Shown: positions 12,433 to 62,105 of the stretch, one piece after another
Position numbering within the stretch: position 1 is the first letter of the stretch
Layout of the letters: each line of letters opens with the position of its first letter
NCBI RefSeq assembly: GCF_019916085.1
Contig: NZ_CP049834.1
Coordinates: 1,936,501-2,000,500, forward strand
Length of the DNA: 64,000 nt
From: Aquirufa lenticrescens
GTDB lineage: Bacteria; Bacteroidota; Bacteroidia; Cytophagales; Spirosomataceae
Reading direction: 5' to 3'
Notes under the pieces: generated by a model
What the model was told of the DNA's origin: nothing
Database searches by the model: none
The model's input: only the letters and a program-made list of their open reading frames with translations
Translations under genes and position numbers: made by a program

Positions 12433-12486
12433 TTGGATCGGTTATTGAGGTTGTAACAAGTAGGAGATAGGAATTGTTCCGTCGTT

Positions 12487-12528
12487 AAGTACAAAGCACA
12501 AAGTACAAAGCAAAAAGTTCAAAGTTGG
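12487..12528. repeat. Heptamer array E (AAGTACA type)
   Basis: Six units in exact 7-bp register: AAGTACA, AAGCACA, AAGTACA, AAGCAAA, AAGTTCA, AAGTTGG. It lies in the upstream region of the acyltransferase gene (which starts at 12432) and before the degenerate tRNA copy. No inverted partner with the same unit was seen in the window. It belongs to the same class of 7-bp-period arrays found at four other places. Confidence 0.8.
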
Positions 12529-12603
12529 AATCCCCTCTGGGGATGATCTCATGAAATTTTTGTCCTCCGGACTCATTCCCTCCGGACTGACGCTTCGCGT
12601 CAT

Positions 12604-12670
12604 GTGGCCCCGCCGGGAATCGAGTCGAGCGCGACCCCGGCCGTCTCTAGCGTTTAGAAGGGGCGCTCGT
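12604..12670 (-). pseudogene. Degenerate partial copy of tRNA-Arg(CCT)
   Basis: The 20 bp at 12604-12623 are identical to the 3' end of the tRNA-Arg gene (12685-12704), and 12 bp at 12646-12657 match its anticodon-stem and variable region (12712-12723). The spacing between the two matches is 15 bp longer than in the real tRNA, and the rest does not fold, so this is a broken copy. The direct repeat of a tRNA 3' end is what an integrated element leaves behind. The region is richer in GC than its surroundings. Confidence 0.6.
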
Positions 12671-12685
12671 CTGCTTCCCTCTGGG

Positions 12686-12757
12686 TGGCCCCGCCGGGAA
12701 TCGAACCCGGATCTAGCGTTTAGGAAACGCCTATTCTATCCGTTGAACTACAGCGCC
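12686..12757 (-). tRNA. tRNA-Arg (anticodon CCT)
   Basis: Read on the minus strand, a cloverleaf forms: acceptor GGCGCTG, D-arm GTTC/GAAT, anticodon stem GGCGT/ACGCT around loop TTCCTAA (anticodon CCT, decoding AGG), and T-arm CCGGG/CCCGG with TTCGATT. CCA is not encoded. The acceptor 3' strand is CGGGGCC, which gives a G-G mismatch at position 4:69 and a G-T pair at 6:67. The 3' 20 nt are duplicated at 12604-12623. It lies between a heptamer array and the degenerate copy. Confidence 0.85.
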
Positions 12758-12760
12758 AAT

Positions 12761-12795
12761 ATCTATAATCTCTACTCTCTTATCTCTACTCTCCC
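12761..12795. repeat. Heptamer array D (ATCTCTA type)
   Basis: Five units in exact 7-bp register: ATCTATA, ATCTCTA, CTCTCTT, ATCTCTA, CTCTCCC. The stop codon of hflX (CTA on this strand, 12786-12788) and its last Glu codon lie inside the array. It shares its vocabulary with the inverted pairs at 37954-38081 and 60654-60758. The purine-rich strand (TAGAGAT) is the one read out of hflX, as in the other arrays that follow a gene end. Confidence 0.85.
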
Positions 12796-43337: not shown

Positions 43338-44765
43338 ATGCAGGGATTATCCTTAAAACAGAATCAACAACAGAACCTTTCGCCACAACAGATACAATAT
43401 ATCAAGTTGTTGCAGATTCCTACGGCTGAATTAGCGGCTAGGATCGAGGAGGAATTAGAGGATAATCCAGCATTAGAGGAAGGTTTAGATCATAATGAGG
43501 AGCAAGAACCCCGCGAAACACTAGATGACCTGGAGCGTGAGGAGATGGAAGTGGGGGATTATCTGCAAGATGAATATGCTGGCTACAAGATGGCCGGAGA
43601 TTCCTATGATCCCAATGAGGAGACGCGCGAACGCCCTTTGGCCACCGAATCAAGCACCCAAGAATATTTATTGAACCAAATCCGTTACGTCGTTCGTACC
43701 GAGCGCGAAGAAGTTCTCGCCCAGCAAATCATCGGTTCCTTAGAAGAGGACGGCTATTTGCGTCGTAATATTGAGAGCATCGTTAACGATCTTGCCTTCA
43801 CGCAAGGCTTTGAGACGGATTACGATGAAGTGGAGCAAGTATTGTTTAAAGTGCAGTCCTTAGATCCGGCCGGTATCGCCGCTCGTTCCTTGCAAGAATG
43901 TCTTTCCTTGCAATTGCACCGAAAAGAGTCAGACGCACCGGCTCATCTAATCGCCATACGTTTAGTGGATGATTTTTTCGAGGAGTTTTCCAAAAAGCAC
44001 TTCAGCATTTTATTGACTAAACTTGCCATCACAGAAGAGGAGCTCAAAAAGGCGATGCAAGTCATCACCCATTTGAATCCCAAACCAGGTGGGGGAGACG
44101 ACGCACCCATCGCCCCGTATTTACAACCGGATTTCATTATCACGAATCAAAACGGCAAGATTGAGATCAAAATCAACGGAAAAAACGCCCCTGAGCTTCG
44201 TGTTTCCCGTGCTTTCCAAGAAATGTTGCAGACCTACGACAAAGGCGACAAGCAGCAAAAAGATATTAAAGAGGCCGTTACGTTTATTAAACACAAATTA
44301 GACTCCGCATCTTGGTTCATTTCAGCCATTCAGCAACGACAAGGCACCTTGATGAAAACCATGGAGAGTATCGTTGCGAAGCAATATGATTTCTTTTTGA
44401 CGGGAGATGAGTCCGTTTTAAAGCCAATGAAGATGAAGGAAATCGCCGCCATGATCGAAATGGATATTTCCACCGTATCTCGGGTGGTCTCGGCGAAGTC
44501 TGTGCAAGCAGATTTTGGCATCTATCCGCTAAAATACTTCTTCTCCGAAGGCATCACCCACGAATCTGGTGAGGATTTCTCTACCCGCGAAGTGAAGAAC
44601 ATCTTGCGCGAGATCATCGAACAAGAACCTAGCTCAGAACCGCATTCAGATGAGGATTTAGAGCAATTATTACTCGAACGCGGCTTCGTCGTGAAGCGCA
44701 GAACCGTGGCTAAATACCGCGATCAACTGGGGATTCCGGTGGCGAGGTTGAGGAAACACCTTTAA
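43338..44765 (+). CDS. rpoN: RNA polymerase sigma-54 factor
   Basis: A 475-residue sigma-54. Region I is Gln- and Leu-rich (LSLKQNQQQNLSPQQIQYIKLLQIP), an acidic region II follows (about residues 45-95), then the core-binding domain and the C-terminal DNA-binding domain with the RpoN box (RRTVAKYRDQLGIP) near the end. It serves enhancer-dependent promoters with activator ATPases. The C-terminus is the usual one (RLRKHL). Its stop codon TAA is the first three bases of a heptamer array. Confidence 0.95.
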   Translation: MQGLSLKQNQQQNLSPQQIQYIKLLQIPTAELAARIEEELEDNPALEEGLDHNEEQEPRETLDDLEREEMEVGDYLQDEYAGYKMAGDSYDPNEETRERPLATESSTQEYLLNQIRYVVRTEREEVLAQQIIGSLEEDGYLRRNIESIVNDLAFTQGFETDYDEVEQVLFKVQSLDPAGIAARSLQECLSLQLHRKESDAPAHLIAIRLVDDFFEEFSKKHFSILLTKLAITEEELKKAMQVITHLNPKPGGGDDAPIAPYLQPDFIITNQNGKIEIKINGKNAPELRVSRAFQEMLQTYDKGDKQQKDIKEAVTFIKHKLDSASWFISAIQQRQGTLMKTMESIVAKQYDFFLTGDESVLKPMKMKEIAAMIEMDISTVSRVVSAKSVQADFGIYPLKYFFSEGITHESGEDFSTREVKNILREIIEQEPSSEPHSDEDLEQLLLERGFVVKRRTVAKYRDQLGIPVARLRKHL

Positions 44766-44826
44766 ATGGTGAATGGTAAATGGTGAATGGTAAATGGGTG
44801 GATATTAAATGGTAAGTGGTGAATAA
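44763..44826. repeat. Heptamer array C, left arm (TAAATGG/TGAATGG)
   Basis: Units in order: TAAATGG, TGAATGG, TAAATGG, TGAATGG, TAAATGG, an 8-nt variant, TAAATGG, TAAGTGG, TGAATAA. The period is exactly 7 bp except for the one variant. The first TAA is the stop codon of rpoN. Each unit holds TAA or TGA, so all three reading frames are closed within three units. Confidence 0.88.
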
Positions 44827-44894
44827 GGGGCGGTTTTTTATCATTGTGTTGATATGAATTGGACCTTAATTTCTCTATTTTTAGTCCAAAAACA

Positions 44895-45257
44895 ATGACC
44901 ACTAATCTTATTCAAACAAAAACCTTTGCATTTTCTTTGCAAATTATTTCGGTTTATAGAATTCTTCAAATTGAAAAGGAATACGTCTTATCTAAGCAAC
45001 TATTGCGGTGTTCAACCGCTGTGGGAGCCATGGTGATGGAGGCTGATCACGCAGAATCGAGGGCAGATTTTAAACACAAAATGAGTGTCGCCCAAAAAGA
45101 AATTAATGAATCAATCTATTGGCTAAAGCTTTTAGAAGCTGCGAATTATCTTTCGGTAAAACAAATATTTTTACCATTGAAAGATGCGAACGATATTTTG
45201 CATATCATTACAAGAATTTTGATAACAGTAAAGCAAAACATAAAACTGAATACCTAG
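44895..45257 (+). CDS. Four-helix-bundle protein (S23 / 23S rRNA intervening-sequence family)
   Basis: A 120-residue basic protein predicted to be four helices: about residues 8-30, 33-55 (EYVLSKQLLRCSTAVGAMVMEA), 60-90 (RADFKHKMSVAQKEINESIYWLKLLEAANYL) and 97-117. The family pattern of a second helix with LxxQxxRxxxxVGxNxxE and a third with DFxxKMxxAxKExxExxYWLxLL is recognisable. Relatives are encoded in intervening sequences of 23S rRNA genes and resemble Avd of diversity-generating retroelements, forming basic pentamers that bind nucleic acid. There is no reverse transcriptase nearby. It lies alone between inverted heptamer arrays. Confidence 0.82.
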   Translation: MTTNLIQTKTFAFSLQIISVYRILQIEKEYVLSKQLLRCSTAVGAMVMEADHAESRADFKHKMSVAQKEINESIYWLKLLEAANYLSVKQIFLPLKDANDILHIITRILITVKQNIKLNT

Positions 45258-45260
45258 CGA

Positions 45261-45306
45261 CCATTCACCATTCACCATTTCCAATTCATTCACCATTTAC
45301 CATGAA
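45261..45306. repeat. Heptamer array C, right arm (CCATTCA/CCATTTA)
   Basis: Units: CCATTCA, CCATTCA, CCATTTC, a 4-nt remnant, TCATTCA, CCATTTA, CCATGAA. These are the reverse complements of the left-arm units. The array begins 4 bp after the stop of the four-helix-bundle gene and its last unit contains the ATG of the enoyl-CoA hydratase gene. Confidence 0.85.
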
Positions 45307-46072
45307 TTTTTTAAAACTCCACCGCAACGGCCCCATCTGGACTTTGACATTACATCGTCCTGAGGTATATAATGCCTTGAATGCAGGTTTAATTCACGAA
45401 ATCAGGGAAGTGGCTGAAGCGGCGCAGATTGATGACGAGGTGCGTGTTTTAGTCATCACGGGAGAGGGAAAAGCCTTTTGTTCAGGTGCAGATTTGAAGT
45501 CCGGTGTAAGTGATCCTAATTTGGGTAATGTGTTGCGTTCCACTTATAACCCTATGATTACGGCATTGCGTGGTTTAAATAAACCCGTTATCGGAGCGAT
45601 TAATGGGGTCGCTGCGGGTGCTGGCTGTAGTTTAGCCTTAGCCTGTGATTATATTGTTGCACACGAGGATGCGTATTTTTCTGAGTTATTTGTCCAAATA
45701 GGTTTAGCCATGGACGCGGGTTCTACCGCCTTTTTAATGCAGTCTGTGGGATACCACCGAGCTTTTGATTTAGCGACTACCGGTAGAAAGATGGGAGCGC
45801 AAGAGGCGAAAGAGATGGGTCTAGTGGCTGAGGTCGTTTCAGGAGCTGATTGGGAAGGGAAGGTGCATGAGGTGGCTTTAGCCTTTTCGAAAAAAGCAAC
45901 CTTAGCGATTTCCTTAATGAAACGTAGTTTACAACGCGCTTATAATCAGGATTTAGCAGCGACGCTAGCCTCTGAAGCGGAAGAACAAACGATTTTGGGG
46001 CACAGCGAAGATTTTGCGGAAGGGGTGACGGCCTTTATGCAGAAAAGGACTCCTCACTTCAAAGGGAAATAA
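45302..46072 (+). CDS. Enoyl-CoA hydratase/isomerase family protein (PaaG-like)
   Basis: A 256-residue crotonase-fold protein. The oxyanion-hole motifs are FCSGADLKSG and INGVAAGAGCSLALACDY. The first catalytic Glu of classic enoyl-CoA hydratase is Ser here (GCSLAL), and the second acid is the Asp of AMDAGST, a pattern nearer to PaaG-type isomerases of phenylacetate breakdown. So it may be an isomerase rather than a hydratase. Its ATG lies in the last heptamer of array C, so its 5' untranslated region is made of repeat. No other phenylacetate genes are near. Confidence 0.85.
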   Translation: MNFLKLHRNGPIWTLTLHRPEVYNALNAGLIHEIREVAEAAQIDDEVRVLVITGEGKAFCSGADLKSGVSDPNLGNVLRSTYNPMITALRGLNKPVIGAINGVAAGAGCSLALACDYIVAHEDAYFSELFVQIGLAMDAGSTAFLMQSVGYHRAFDLATTGRKMGAQEAKEMGLVAEVVSGADWEGKVHEVALAFSKKATLAISLMKRSLQRAYNQDLAATLASEAEEQTILGHSEDFAEGVTAFMQKRTPHFKGK

Positions 46073-58056: not shown

Positions 58057-60657
58057 ATGAACCCAAATAATTACACTTCACAAGCTGGAATTATTATTCA
58101 AAACGCGATGGAAATCGCGAGCCAGAATGGCCAGCAAGCCATTGAAACGGGGCACCTTTTGCAAGCCATCTTGCAAGATGATACCCAAACATCCGCCTTT
58201 CTTTTAAAGAAGAACGGCGTGTCTGTTCTACAAATTCAAGAGAAATTACAAGCCATCCTTTCTTCTTACCCCAAAGTATCAGGCGCTCAGCCTTATGCGA
58301 GCAATGCCTTACAGCAAGTTTTGACGAAGGCAGAGGCTTTGAAAACTGAATTTGGCGATTCGTATGTCAGCGTAGAGATTTTATTTCTCTCTTTAATCGA
58401 ATCCAAAGATACCATCGCAGACTTATTAAAGTCGCTGGGCATCAACAATGCAAATTTTAAGAAATCCATCATAGAATTAAGAGGAAATAGAAAAGTGAAC
58501 GATCCACATGCAGAAGGTACTTACCAGTCTTTGGAAAAATACGGTAAGAATTTAAATGAATTAGCTAAAGCCGGAAAAATCGATCCGGTCATCGGACGCG
58601 ATGAAGAAATTCGCCGGGTCTTGCAGATATTATCCCGCAGAACGAAAAATAACCCCATCCTATTAGGAGAACCGGGTGTAGGTAAAACCGCCATTGTGGA
58701 AGGTCTAGCCCAACGTATCGTCTCTGGAGACGTACCCGAAAACTTGAAATCCAAGATCGTCATGTCGCTCGATATGGGACTTTTAGTAGCGGGAGCGAAG
58801 TACAAAGGAGAATTTGAGGAGCGTTTGAAAGCGGTCATCAAAGAAGTAACCGACTCCGATGGAGAAATTGTCTTGTTCATCGATGAGATTCACACCTTGA
58901 TCGGTGCAGGCGGCGGAGGCGAAGGAGCGATGGATGCCGCGAACTTGTTAAAACCTGCTTTAGCGCGTGGTGAACTTCATGCGATCGGTGCCACGACTTT
59001 GAAAGAGTACCAAAAGTACATCGAGAAAGACAAAGCCCTTGAGCGTCGTTTTCAATCCGTTTTAGTCGAAGAGCCGGATGTCGCAGATGCGATTTCCATT
59101 CTTCGCGGGATCAAGGATAAATACGAATTGCACCACGGTGTACGTATTCAGGATGACGCGGTAATTGCTGCGGTAGAATTATCGAACCGCTACATCTCAG
59201 ATCGTTTCTTACCAGATAAGGCGATCGATTTAATGGATGAGGCGGCTGCCAAAATGCGACTTGAAATTGACTCCGTTCCGGAGGAAATCGATGACATTCA
59301 GCGCAAAATTATGCAGCTAGAGATCGAACGCGAGGCGATTCGTCGCGAGAATAACAAAGAGAAAGAGACGATATTATCCCGTGATTTAGCGGATTTATCG
59401 GAGAAACGAGATGCGTTGAAGGCCAAATGGCAAGCAGAGAAATCCGTGCTCGATGCAGTTCGCGCCGAGAAGGAGACGATTGATCGCTTAAAGCTAGAGG
59501 CAGAACAAGCGGAGCGCCAAGGCGAATACGGTAAAGTAGCCGAGATACGTTACGGTCGTTTAGTCGAGTCGGAACAGAAGTTGAAAGATATGCAAGCGCA
59601 GCCAGCGGGCGAAAACTCGATGTTGCAGGAAGAGGTTACCGCCGAAAACGTGGCAGAAGTTGTCGCGAAGTGGACAGGAATTCCCGTAAGTCGTATGTTG
59701 CAAACGGAAGTGGAGAAGCTATTGCATTTGGAAGATGAATTGCACAAGCGCGTAGCTGGACAGGATCAAGCCATTGAGATGGTTTCGGATGCGGTGCGTC
59801 GCTCTCGTGCTGGATTGCAGGATCCTAAACGCCCGATTGGTTCGTTCATTTTCTTAGGTACGACCGGGGTGGGGAAGACGGAATTAGCCAAGACTTTGGC
59901 CTCTTATCTATTCAATGACGAAAACGCGATGATCCGCATCGATATGTCAGAATACCAAGAACGCCATGCGGTAAGCCGCTTAGTGGGAGCGCCTCCGGGA
60001 TACGTGGGCTATGATGAAGGCGGTCAATTAACAGAAGCGGTGCGTCGCAAGCCCTACTCGGTTGTGTTATTGGATGAGATCGAAAAGGCGCATCCGGATG
60101 TTTGGAACATCTTATTACAAGTATTAGACGAAGGTCGATTAACCGATAATAAAGGTCGTACGGCGAACTTCAAGAACACGATCATCATTATGACGTCTAA
60201 CATCGGTAGCCACTTGATTCAAGAGAAAATGGCTCAGATGGAAGGTTGGAACAATGCCTTGATTTTAGAGGAAACCAAAGAAGAAGTAATGACATTACTG
60301 AAACAGGTTGTTCGTCCTGAATTCTTGAACCGTGTCGATGAAGTCGTGCTGTTCGAACCATTGACCTTAGAGCATGCACGCAAAATTTTGGCGATTCAAT
60401 TCAAAGAGGTTCAAAAGCGTTTAGCAGAACAAAATATCACGTTGGAAGCTTCAGAAGAAGCCTTGAATAAACTCGCTACGGATGGATATGACCCGAATTA
60501 TGGTGGTCGTCCGATGAAGCGCGTACTTCAAAAAGCGGTTCTGAATGAATTGTCAAAGGCTATTTTATCGGGTAAGATTCAGAAAGATTCAGCGGTGATG
60601 ATGGAGTTGGATGCGAAGGGGGAGTTGAGTTTTGAGAATATTATCGTGGAGGTTTAA
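58057..60657 (+). CDS. clpB: ATP-dependent disaggregase ClpB
   Basis: An 866-residue Hsp104-type AAA+ protein. The N domain (1-145), NBD1 with Walker [14 protein letters not shown] and the DEIHT region, the middle coiled coil (about 410-525, the ClpB-specific insert), and NBD2 with Walker [13 protein letters not shown] and DEIEKAHPD are all present. With DnaK it rescues aggregated proteins. It has its own leader hairpin. Its stop codon TAA lies in the first unit of a heptamer array, and the length is normal. Confidence 0.97.
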
Positions 60658-60702
60658 GAGTAGAGAGAGGAGATAGTAGATAATAGATAATAGAGTAGAG
60701 AT
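60654..60702. repeat. Heptamer array B, left arm (TAGAGAT type)
   Basis: Seven units in register: TTAAGAG, TAGAGAG, AGGAGAT, AGTAGAT, AATAGAT, AATAGAG, TAGAGAT. The clpB stop codon is inside the first unit. Together with the right arm (60717-60758) it forms a long inverted repeat with a loop of only 14 bp. Confidence 0.87.
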
Positions 60703-60716
60703 AATTCACCTTTTTT

Positions 60717-60758
60717 ATCTCTACTCTATACTCTCTACTCTCTAATCTATACTCTATT
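60717..60758. repeat. Heptamer array B, right arm (ATCTCTA type)
   Basis: Six units in register: ATCTCTA, CTCTATA, CTCTCTA, CTCTCTA, ATCTATA, CTCTATT. On the minus strand they encode the last residues Asn-Arg-Val and the stop codon of the aldehyde dehydrogenase. The right arm pairs with the left arm, so transcripts from either side carry a long hairpin. Confidence 0.87.
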
Positions 60759-62105
60759 TTGCAAGCAAACCATCCTCGTAAACCGATAAATCGCCTGCGT
60801 TCCTACGCTCGTACTACGTGAATCCGTAGTAGCAGGGAAAGGTCCTCCGTGCACCATAGCGCCAGAAACTTCCACTCCCGTAGGGAAACCGTTGAATAAT
60901 AGACGGCCTACTTTTTGTAATAAGGTATCTATTAGATCCTCTGAAATTTCGGCTTTAGTGCCATGAATAGTTCCGGTTAACTGCCCGTCAATCGATTCTA
61001 TAAATGTCAACATTTCCGCTTCATTTTCGACCAAAATAGCCACGGTGCAAGGCCCGAAAACTTCTTCTAAAATTGCACGATTCGCATTAGCCGCATCTGC
61101 CACAAATAAGGCAGGAGAAGGTAGCTCGCGCGATGTTAATTTGGTAGAATGTTTAGCTAGGTTCGAAACGCCAAAAGTATAGGCTGATGCGATTCCCGGC
61201 ATTAAAAAAGTACCCAATGGTAATTTATCTAATTCCGCAGCCAGCAAATCAAGGAATGCAGCATCTTTCTTTTGAAGGATAAGTAAACCAGGATTCGTGC
61301 AGAACTGACCTACACCCAGGCAGACAGAACCAGCTAGGCTAGCGGCTAGAGCTGATGGGTTTTCGGCGATTTTGTTCGATAATAAAATAACGGGATTCAC
61401 GCTACCCATTTCCGCATAAACGGGAATCGGGTGGGGTCTACGAACAGCTAGGTCATACAAGGCTTTACCTCCTCTGTACGATCCTGTAAAACCTACCGCC
61501 TGAATGTCAGTGTGTTGCACTAATTGTGATCCTACCTCATTCGAAGAACCGTGAATCAAAGCGAAAACACCTGCGGGTAAACCACAAGAAGCGACAGCTT
61601 TAGAAATCGCTGAACCTACTAATTCTCCCGTTTTAGGATGTGCTGGATGCGCTTTGAAAACGACAGGGCAACCTGCAGCTAGGGCAGAAATTGTATCTCC
61701 ACCTGCTACTGAAAAGGCCAAAGGGAAGTTGCTTGCCCCGAAAACAGCCACAGGACCTAGTGGGATTTGGGTTTGAAATAAATCCGGTTTAGGTAATGGT
61801 GCACGGTCCGGTTGAGCGGGATCGTGGATTTCTTTTTTCCAAGCTGGATTGGAGATGAAGTCTGCGAAGGCTTGAATTTGGCCTATTGTGCGACCTCTTT
61901 CTCCCGTAATGCGCGCTTCTGGGAGGTTTGATTCCGTGCAGGCGCTTTGGATTAATTCATCACCTAAGGCCATTATTTCGCGGGAAATGGCTACCAGAAA
62001 TGCCGCGCGATCTACATCGGAAATACGACGGTAAATAGGGAATGCGGCTTTTGCAGCGGCAACGGCTGAGTCGATTTCTGCAATCGAAGCGTCTTTATAA
62101 TTCAT
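60747..62105 (-). CDS. 2-oxoglutarate semialdehyde dehydrogenase-type ALDH, C-terminus replaced
   Basis: A 452-residue NAD(P)-dependent aldehyde dehydrogenase close to the 2,5-dioxopentanoate dehydrogenases of pentose breakdown. The catalytic Cys is in GVGQFCTNPG and the Glu in YAEMGSVNP; AVFGASNFPLAF and the GGPFPATTD loop are typical. Relatives usually continue for ~25 residues after the RPVxxQN motif; here the chain reads RMVCLQN and then Arg-Val-stop encoded by heptamer array B. It also lacks an N-terminal strand present in longer relatives. The 1-bp overlap with the FAH gene shows that both are co-transcribed. Confidence 0.82.
   Translation of the reverse strand: MNYKDASIAEIDSAVAAAKAAFPIYRRISDVDRAAFLVAISREIMALGDELIQSACTESNLPEARITGERGRTIGQIQAFADFISNPAWKKEIHDPAQPDRAPLPKPDLFQTQIPLGPVAVFGASNFPLAFSVAGGDTISALAAGCPVVFKAHPAHPKTGELVGSAISKAVASCGLPAGVFALIHGSSNEVGSQLVQHTDIQAVGFTGSYRGGKALYDLAVRRPHPIPVYAEMGSVNPVILLSNKIAENPSALAASLAGSVCLGVGQFCTNPGLLILQKKDAAFLDLLAAELDKLPLGTFLMPGIASAYTFGVSNLAKHSTKLTSRELPSPALFVADAANANRAILEEVFGPCTVAILVENEAEMLTFIESIDGQLTGTIHGTKAEISEDLIDTLLQKVGRLLFNGFPTGVEVSGAMVHGGPFPATTDSRSTSVGTQAIYRFTRMVCLQNRV

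Follow-up and report, generated by a model that had tools for sequence, protein, structure and literature searches.

The region between rpoN and an enoyl-CoA hydratase (ECH) gene in the window (the whole stretch of 64,000 nucleotides of DNA that was analysed) is filled by a PF05635 four-helix-bundle (4HB) gene and inverted TAAATGG/TGAATGG arrays, and inverted arrays are much commoner around 4HB genes in general than around control genes. The explanation that we favour, for which we see about an even chance when its proposed mechanism is included, is that the window locus belongs to a family of small mobile cassettes, each composed of a basic 4HB gene and matching inverted short tandem arrays, mostly of 7 bp.

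RESULTS

Structure of the rpoN/ECH cassette

The host genome of the window is a single contig of 2.5 Mb. The rpoN gene, encoding sigma-54, occupies positions 43338..44765 of the plus strand, and the 5΄ arm of the cassette, an array of TAAATGG/TGAATGG-like 7-mers on the same strand (44763..44824), begins at its stop codon (44763-44765). This left array of 62 bp was resolved by TRF into 8.7 copies of a 7-mer or 4.4 copies of a 14-mer. A TTATCA-N-TTGATA stem-loop (44835..44856, plus strand) separates the 5΄ arm from the 4HB gene (44895..45257, plus strand), which starts with ATG and contains 120 codons plus the stop. The 3΄ arm is an inverse array (ACCATTC/CCATTTA; 45260..45303, minus strand) and ends at the start codon (ATG, 45302-45304) of the plus-strand enoyl-CoA hydratase/isomerase gene (45302..46072). 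The longest arms of the cassette comprise 28 nt, are 89% complementary and are spaced 463 nt apart. A first-pass annotation of this DNA had described inverted heptamer arrays around a 120-codon 4HB gene, with the left end at the rpoN stop codon and the ATG of the next gene within the right end; the coordinates agree with both limits, and the arrangement as a whole is confirmed by the coordinates, the TRF result and the PF05635 match.

The TTATCA-N-TTGATA stem-loop is a motif at the level of the genus, found at 15 of 53 genus 4HB loci and at none of 98 genus controls; elsewhere, it occurred at 2 of 102 4HB loci of other Bacteroidota, and 4 of all 252 controls carried it. With a single threshold applied to the 64-kb window, four stretches had a period of 7, and none had a period of 5, 6, 8, 9, 10 or 11. 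Period-7 arrays were also observed apart from the 4HB gene. Two inverted arrays lie a few bases from each other in intergenic DNA at 60653-60764, and from 37949 to about 38086 an array of the TAGAGAT/AGAGTAG type and its inverse (the right arm being recognized by eye) bracket a terminator-like hairpin; neither pair encloses a 4HB gene. At 12483-12795, arrays that do not pair with each other are located on both sides of a tRNA-Arg gene (cct, 12682-12758), which is adjoined by an apparent partial tRNA copy.

The window 4HB protein matched PF05635 (23S_rRNA_IVP) with an E-value of 5.6e-20 and 72 bits, compared with a curated cut-off of 33.8, and its earlier assignment to the protein family of 23S rRNA intervening sequences (IVSs) therefore stands. 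Its pI of 9.27 bears out the basic character claimed for it. The closest known structures were 2rld and 2gsc, and the five chains present in each of these homologous entries suggest the pentamer that had also been proposed. We know of no catalytic domain in the 4HB protein. The genome itself contains three PF05635 genes, all of which have inverted repeat flanks with a different unit each time: TAAATGG/TGAATGG, CAGTAGT/CAGTAAT, and a third, longer one of about 26 bp that contains palindromes. According to excerpts of PMC5524665, regions termed phage elements include a 4HB gene adjacent to guanylate kinase.

Inverted flanks at 4HB loci and control genes

For each locus, flanks of 400 bp were taken, the 3΄ flank was reverse-complemented, and its best local match with the 5΄ flank gave the score; a score of 25 or more was regarded as strongly inverted; mispaired flanks were compared using oriented loci. 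The Bacteroidota survey comprised 155 distinct 4HB loci, with 252 other genes, drawn from the stretches that contain these loci, as controls. From the genus, 53 of 60 matches were used, the rest being at contig ends, N-rich or without a complete ORF, and the 102 loci from other Bacteroidota (72 and 30) were taken from the best matches listed for the phylum and the family. Strong inversion was found at 48 of the 53 genus loci, a count that does not represent independent events because many of these loci are orthologues, and at 26/102 loci from other Bacteroidota, compared with 2/252 controls and 24/2525 mispaired 4HB flanks. When the threshold was lowered to 22, the corresponding numbers were 53/53, 37/102 and 8/252 (genus, other Bacteroidota and controls, respectively). 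For other phyla, we searched 29 genomes and used 64 loci among the matches listed, five of which were from Bacteroidota; the genomes had been selected for the presence of TAACTGA arrays. Of the 59 loci outside Bacteroidota, most of them cyanobacterial, 42 scored 25 or more, compared with 2/93 controls and 68/1573 mispaired flanks. As judged from the sequences of these loci, cassettes consisting of a 4HB gene and inverted arrays recur in more than one bacterial phylum.

A period of 7 was present in the aligned arms as well at 37/53 genus loci, 15/102 loci of other Bacteroidota and 32/59 loci of other phyla, and in inverted arms at 0/252 and 2/93 of the respective controls. The first-pass annotation had proposed to ask whether inverted flanks with a 7-bp period are commoner at 4HB genes than at other genes, and these counts answer the question affirmatively. 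When period 7 was evaluated in the flanks (match of 0.7 or more), it was found at 34/53 genus loci, 24/102 loci of other Bacteroidota and 17/252 controls, and each of the periods 5, 6, 9, 10, 12 and 13 was found at most once in any of these groups. Period-7 arrays were common at control genes of the other phyla (22/93), but they were not inverted around the genes. The 11 genus cassettes lacking period 7 in their arms had units of 15 bp or about 26 bp; among the 42 inverted cases of the other phyla, the period of 7 was missing in 10, and at least one (L354) was not array-like. Counting against the favoured model, 76 of the 102 Bacteroidota 4HB loci outside the genus had no arms by the flank test.

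Replacement and movement of gene and arms

hemE was found in 36 genomes, and 30 engB/hemE loci were read. Units at this site were assigned using k-mers of four classes, which were defined after the sequences had been seen, and in 16 of 16 cassettes the same dominant class was present on both sides, with the classes CAGTA and CAGTTG overlapping in two of the 16. Fourteen of the 16 cassettes were usable for comparison with HemE. Among the 44 pairs in which HemE was at least 95% identical, 4HB identity was 75–94% when the unit class was the same (n = 13) and 52–59% when it was different (n = 31). Because 4HB identity tracks the unit class in these pairs, we conclude that gene and arms are replaced together. 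The split was less clean for HemE below 95%, with 58–84% in 10 same-class pairs and 50–70% in 37 different-class pairs. In the 4HB gene tree, the 7-mer and 15-mer cassettes of engB/hemE fell into separate groups with moderate support, and both main subfamilies were represented at the proB/secA site. Comparison of these loci demonstrates a joint exchange of gene and arms at fixed intergenic sites.

Genome G005 carries one cassette type at two sites, L142 and L138, with 84% identity over 502 bp; the homology takes in both GTAGAAT arms and stops at the arms. On both sides of L142, the host DNA is 87–88% identical to that of a locus in genome G002 (L140), from a sister species, up to the cassette, and L140 carries a different cassette, whose 4HB protein is 46% identical over 54 residues and whose arms are TTAGTTATTAGGG. 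Across the three loci, a single site is thus seen with different cassettes and a single cassette at different sites, the boundary being at the arms; the 4HB gene of L142 is broken by two stop codons, which counts against the favoured model. By eye, L138 and a further locus with a 4HB cassette and GTAGAAT arms (L029) adjoin an apparent 5S rRNA gene. A second candidate for movement, L030 compared with L140, was dropped because the host DNA adjacent to L030 matches a place approximately 4.6 kb away in L140, which a local inversion would explain.

The 4HB tree required 13 locus changes, compared with a minimum of 11 and with 34 after shuffling; being close to the minimum, it is nearly locus-stable, and movement appears to be rare. 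At four of eight loci, the orientation of the 4HB gene varied between species (12/4 at engB/hemE, 1/2 at mutS/nadK, 8/1 at rpoN/ECH and 4/1 at proB/secA), and the gene can sit in either orientation between the arms.

The rpoN/ECH site in relatives

Among 23 relatives with an ECH orthologue, nine had a 4HB gene upstream of it, reversed in L053 and broken in L052. Short junctions were found in others (18 bp in L039; 24–59 bp in L042, L043, L054 and L055), and the empty sites for which a search had been suggested are thus present among these relatives. The gap was about 656 bp in three more; a HigBA-type toxin–antitoxin pair replaces the 4HB cassette in L036 and, by eye, in L040, and L037 is grouped with them by length only. 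L041 had a shortened form, and L044–L048 had other repeats or none; tandem palindromic GTAGAGACGCGAT-type repeats occupy the site in L046 and L048, whose genomes contain no 4HB genes. TRAATGG-like arms are common to close and distant carriers at this site, which fits an old presence with losses better than a recent arrival. The window copy looks old and mostly inherited vertically. The earlier description of a self-contained mobile cassette is therefore upheld for the family, by the enrichment of inverted flanks, the joint replacement at engB/hemE and the two sites in G005, and not for the window copy.

Arrays without a 4HB gene

An alternative that we regard as quite possible, if less than probable, is that the 4HB gene acts as a passenger. 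Short repeats specific to a lineage would form intergenic palindromes through slippage and hairpin-templated copying, and the 4HB element would settle in their loops, as IVSs do in hairpin loops of 23S rRNA; the linkage between unit and protein would then arise only from neighbourhood, with replacement through recombination of the flanking genes. In agreement with this, arrays are abundant without the gene. The own genome contains 140 matches (up to two mismatches) to two TRAATGG units, at a minimum of about 30 places among the matches listed (counted by hand), some forming inverted pairs 5–65 bp apart. TRAATGG arrays occur in 15 of 38 genus genomes, and a 4HB cassette with a TRAATGG unit was not seen in all of them. 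TAGGTAW arrays occur in 16 of the 38. Four of these 16 have cassettes that bear TAGGTAA arms, and eight belong to the 10 genus genomes that lack a PF05635 match; in these eight, the arrays give 15–144 matches each, as many as in carriers. A dependence of the arrays on the 4HB gene was accordingly rejected; maintenance of the arrays does not require the gene, and the protein is at most a candidate mobiliser.

The passenger explanation also agrees with the engB/hemE site, where 15 of the 30 loci lack a 4HB gene; at least nine of these have inverted period-7 arrays, and two have no such arrays. At L307 (about 970-1540; own genome C1:1848646-1849182), another small gene, not of the 4HB type, lies within nested inverted arrays of several units; by eye it has a signal-like start, and the polarity of the arrays is opposite to that in 4HB cassettes. 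In addition, the P6b stem of the Nostoc tRNA-Leu intron consists of 7-nt repeats, whose class has been replaced repeatedly, according to excerpts of PMC4476775. However, neighbourhood alone does not account well for the scarcity of inverted period-7 flanks at the control genes described above, or for the same-genome copy in G005, which spans both arms.

Composition and pairing of the arms

The 5΄ arm was richer in G than in C in 42 of 48 genus cassettes and 21 of 26 cassettes of other Bacteroidota. Array units varied between loci and also between species at one locus. Conserved terminal inverted repeats, as in DNA transposons or MITEs, were not found, because the arm unit varies among cassettes, even at one site.

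It seems improbable that the arms function at the RNA level, like those of 23S rRNA IVSs, where cleavage of the stem by RNase III would let the cassette leave host transcripts, so that its insertion is tolerated. The RNA strand of the window cassette does fold with its arms paired (z = –5.4 versus 100 shuffles), and in Coxiella an IVS with inverted ends and a stem of 28 bp is cleaved by RNase III (PMC4990558, in excerpt). However, differences between arms that G-U pairing tolerates were not in excess over those of the A-C type (283 versus 295; 217 versus 185 in the genus), and cassettes were also found between divergent and convergent genes. The idea of an RNA stem kept by wobble pairs was rejected, as no signal was found. 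Given the lack of a G-U preference, we rank a process at the DNA level ahead of one in RNA, despite the good RNA fold. Among the Bacteroidota cassettes from other genera, A-C type differences exceeded those of the wobble type (110 to 66). A test of whether cognate arms are best partners within one locus was also discarded: own arms matched no better than the arms of relatives with the same unit, and the test is confounded by flips in gene orientation.

Movement of the palindromes in trans by a known enzyme, either RAYT (Y1 transposase), as for REP sequences, or a reverse transcriptase, is very unlikely: three Y1_Tnp matches are present in G005, the genome of the two-site cassette, and the own genome has a single RVT_1 match, but Y1_Tnp was found in 12 of 38 genus genomes and not in the own genome, and RVT_1 in 5 of the 38 (absent from 33, including G005), the own-genome gene being approximately 400 kb from the window cassette.

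DISCUSSION

In the mobile cassette model that we favour, the arms would be the ends that matter for movement and would probably be folded as a hairpin, in single-stranded DNA or RNA. The 4HB protein would bind its own array and assist in copying or inserting the cassette, and enzymes of host replication or repair would do the chemistry. Some gene-less palindromes that share the unit of the cassette might be derivatives carried in trans, or relics. Copies of the window type would mostly pass down vertically, with drift in the arms and in the number of units.

The closest known counterpart is a 23S rRNA IVS with an S23/IVP gene, which likewise has a PF05635 protein, one small ORF and complementary ends of tens of bases; the window cassette has complementary ends around one ORF. 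Unlike such an IVS, the window cassette is intergenic, its neighbours being rpoN and ECH (the Rfam search of the window returned two tRNAs only), and its arms are tandem arrays, with a unit that varies by cassette. The mobility of IVSs has long been suspected, as stated in the excerpted part of PMC4990558, whereas for the cassette family there is direct comparative evidence of movement with the arms.

The cassettes can also be compared with heptamer repeats. Excerpts of PMC4679880 describe TAACTGA and other heptamers in Beggiatoaceae, Cyanobacteria and Bacteroidetes, as scattered intergenic direct repeats of 7 bp; 'four helix', S23 and 23S rRNA are not mentioned in the paper. The cassette arms are likewise intergenic 7-bp repeats of the same phyla, and in a Nostocales cyanobacterium (L256, 7120-8000) inverted TAACTGA arrays surround a 4HB gene. 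However, 79 of 80 TAACTGA-array loci lack a 4HB gene, a single locus having one, and heptamer arrays in general failed as markers of 4HB genes. The P6b stem of the Nostoc intron is also built of inverted 7-nt repeats and replaced in class as a whole, but it is non-coding and lies within a group I intron (PMC4476775, same excerpts).

Two further systems share single features with the cassettes. REPIN/RAYT systems combine many short palindromes with one protein gene that may serve them, as the cassettes may do; in contrast, the cassette protein is a 4HB protein, and no Y1 transposase accompanies it in the own genome. Avd of diversity-generating retroelements is a basic four-helix bundle that forms a pentamer, as the window protein may; unlike in those retroelements, no reverse transcriptase lies beside the window 4HB gene, and no Avd-named match was obtained, up to E = 1, in the PDB profile search. 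In the literature searched, with subscription journals largely outside its scope, we found no description of 4HB genes with inverted arrays outside rRNA.

A bolder and rather doubtful extension is that these cassettes constitute a new class of mobile elements without a transposase or reverse transcriptase. Each lineage of the 4HB protein would read the unit of the arrays as the password of the element, the heptamer palindromes dispersed through Bacteroidota and Cyanobacteria would be non-autonomous copies and relics, and rRNA IVSs would be copies that landed in rRNA.

No function is known for the large family of IVS/S23 proteins, and the short heptamer repeats found in Cyanobacteria and Bacteroidota have long been puzzling. 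With 4HB genes and repeats physically linked and exchanged as a unit, it becomes possible to ask directly whether the protein binds the unit of its own arms and whether it moves them.
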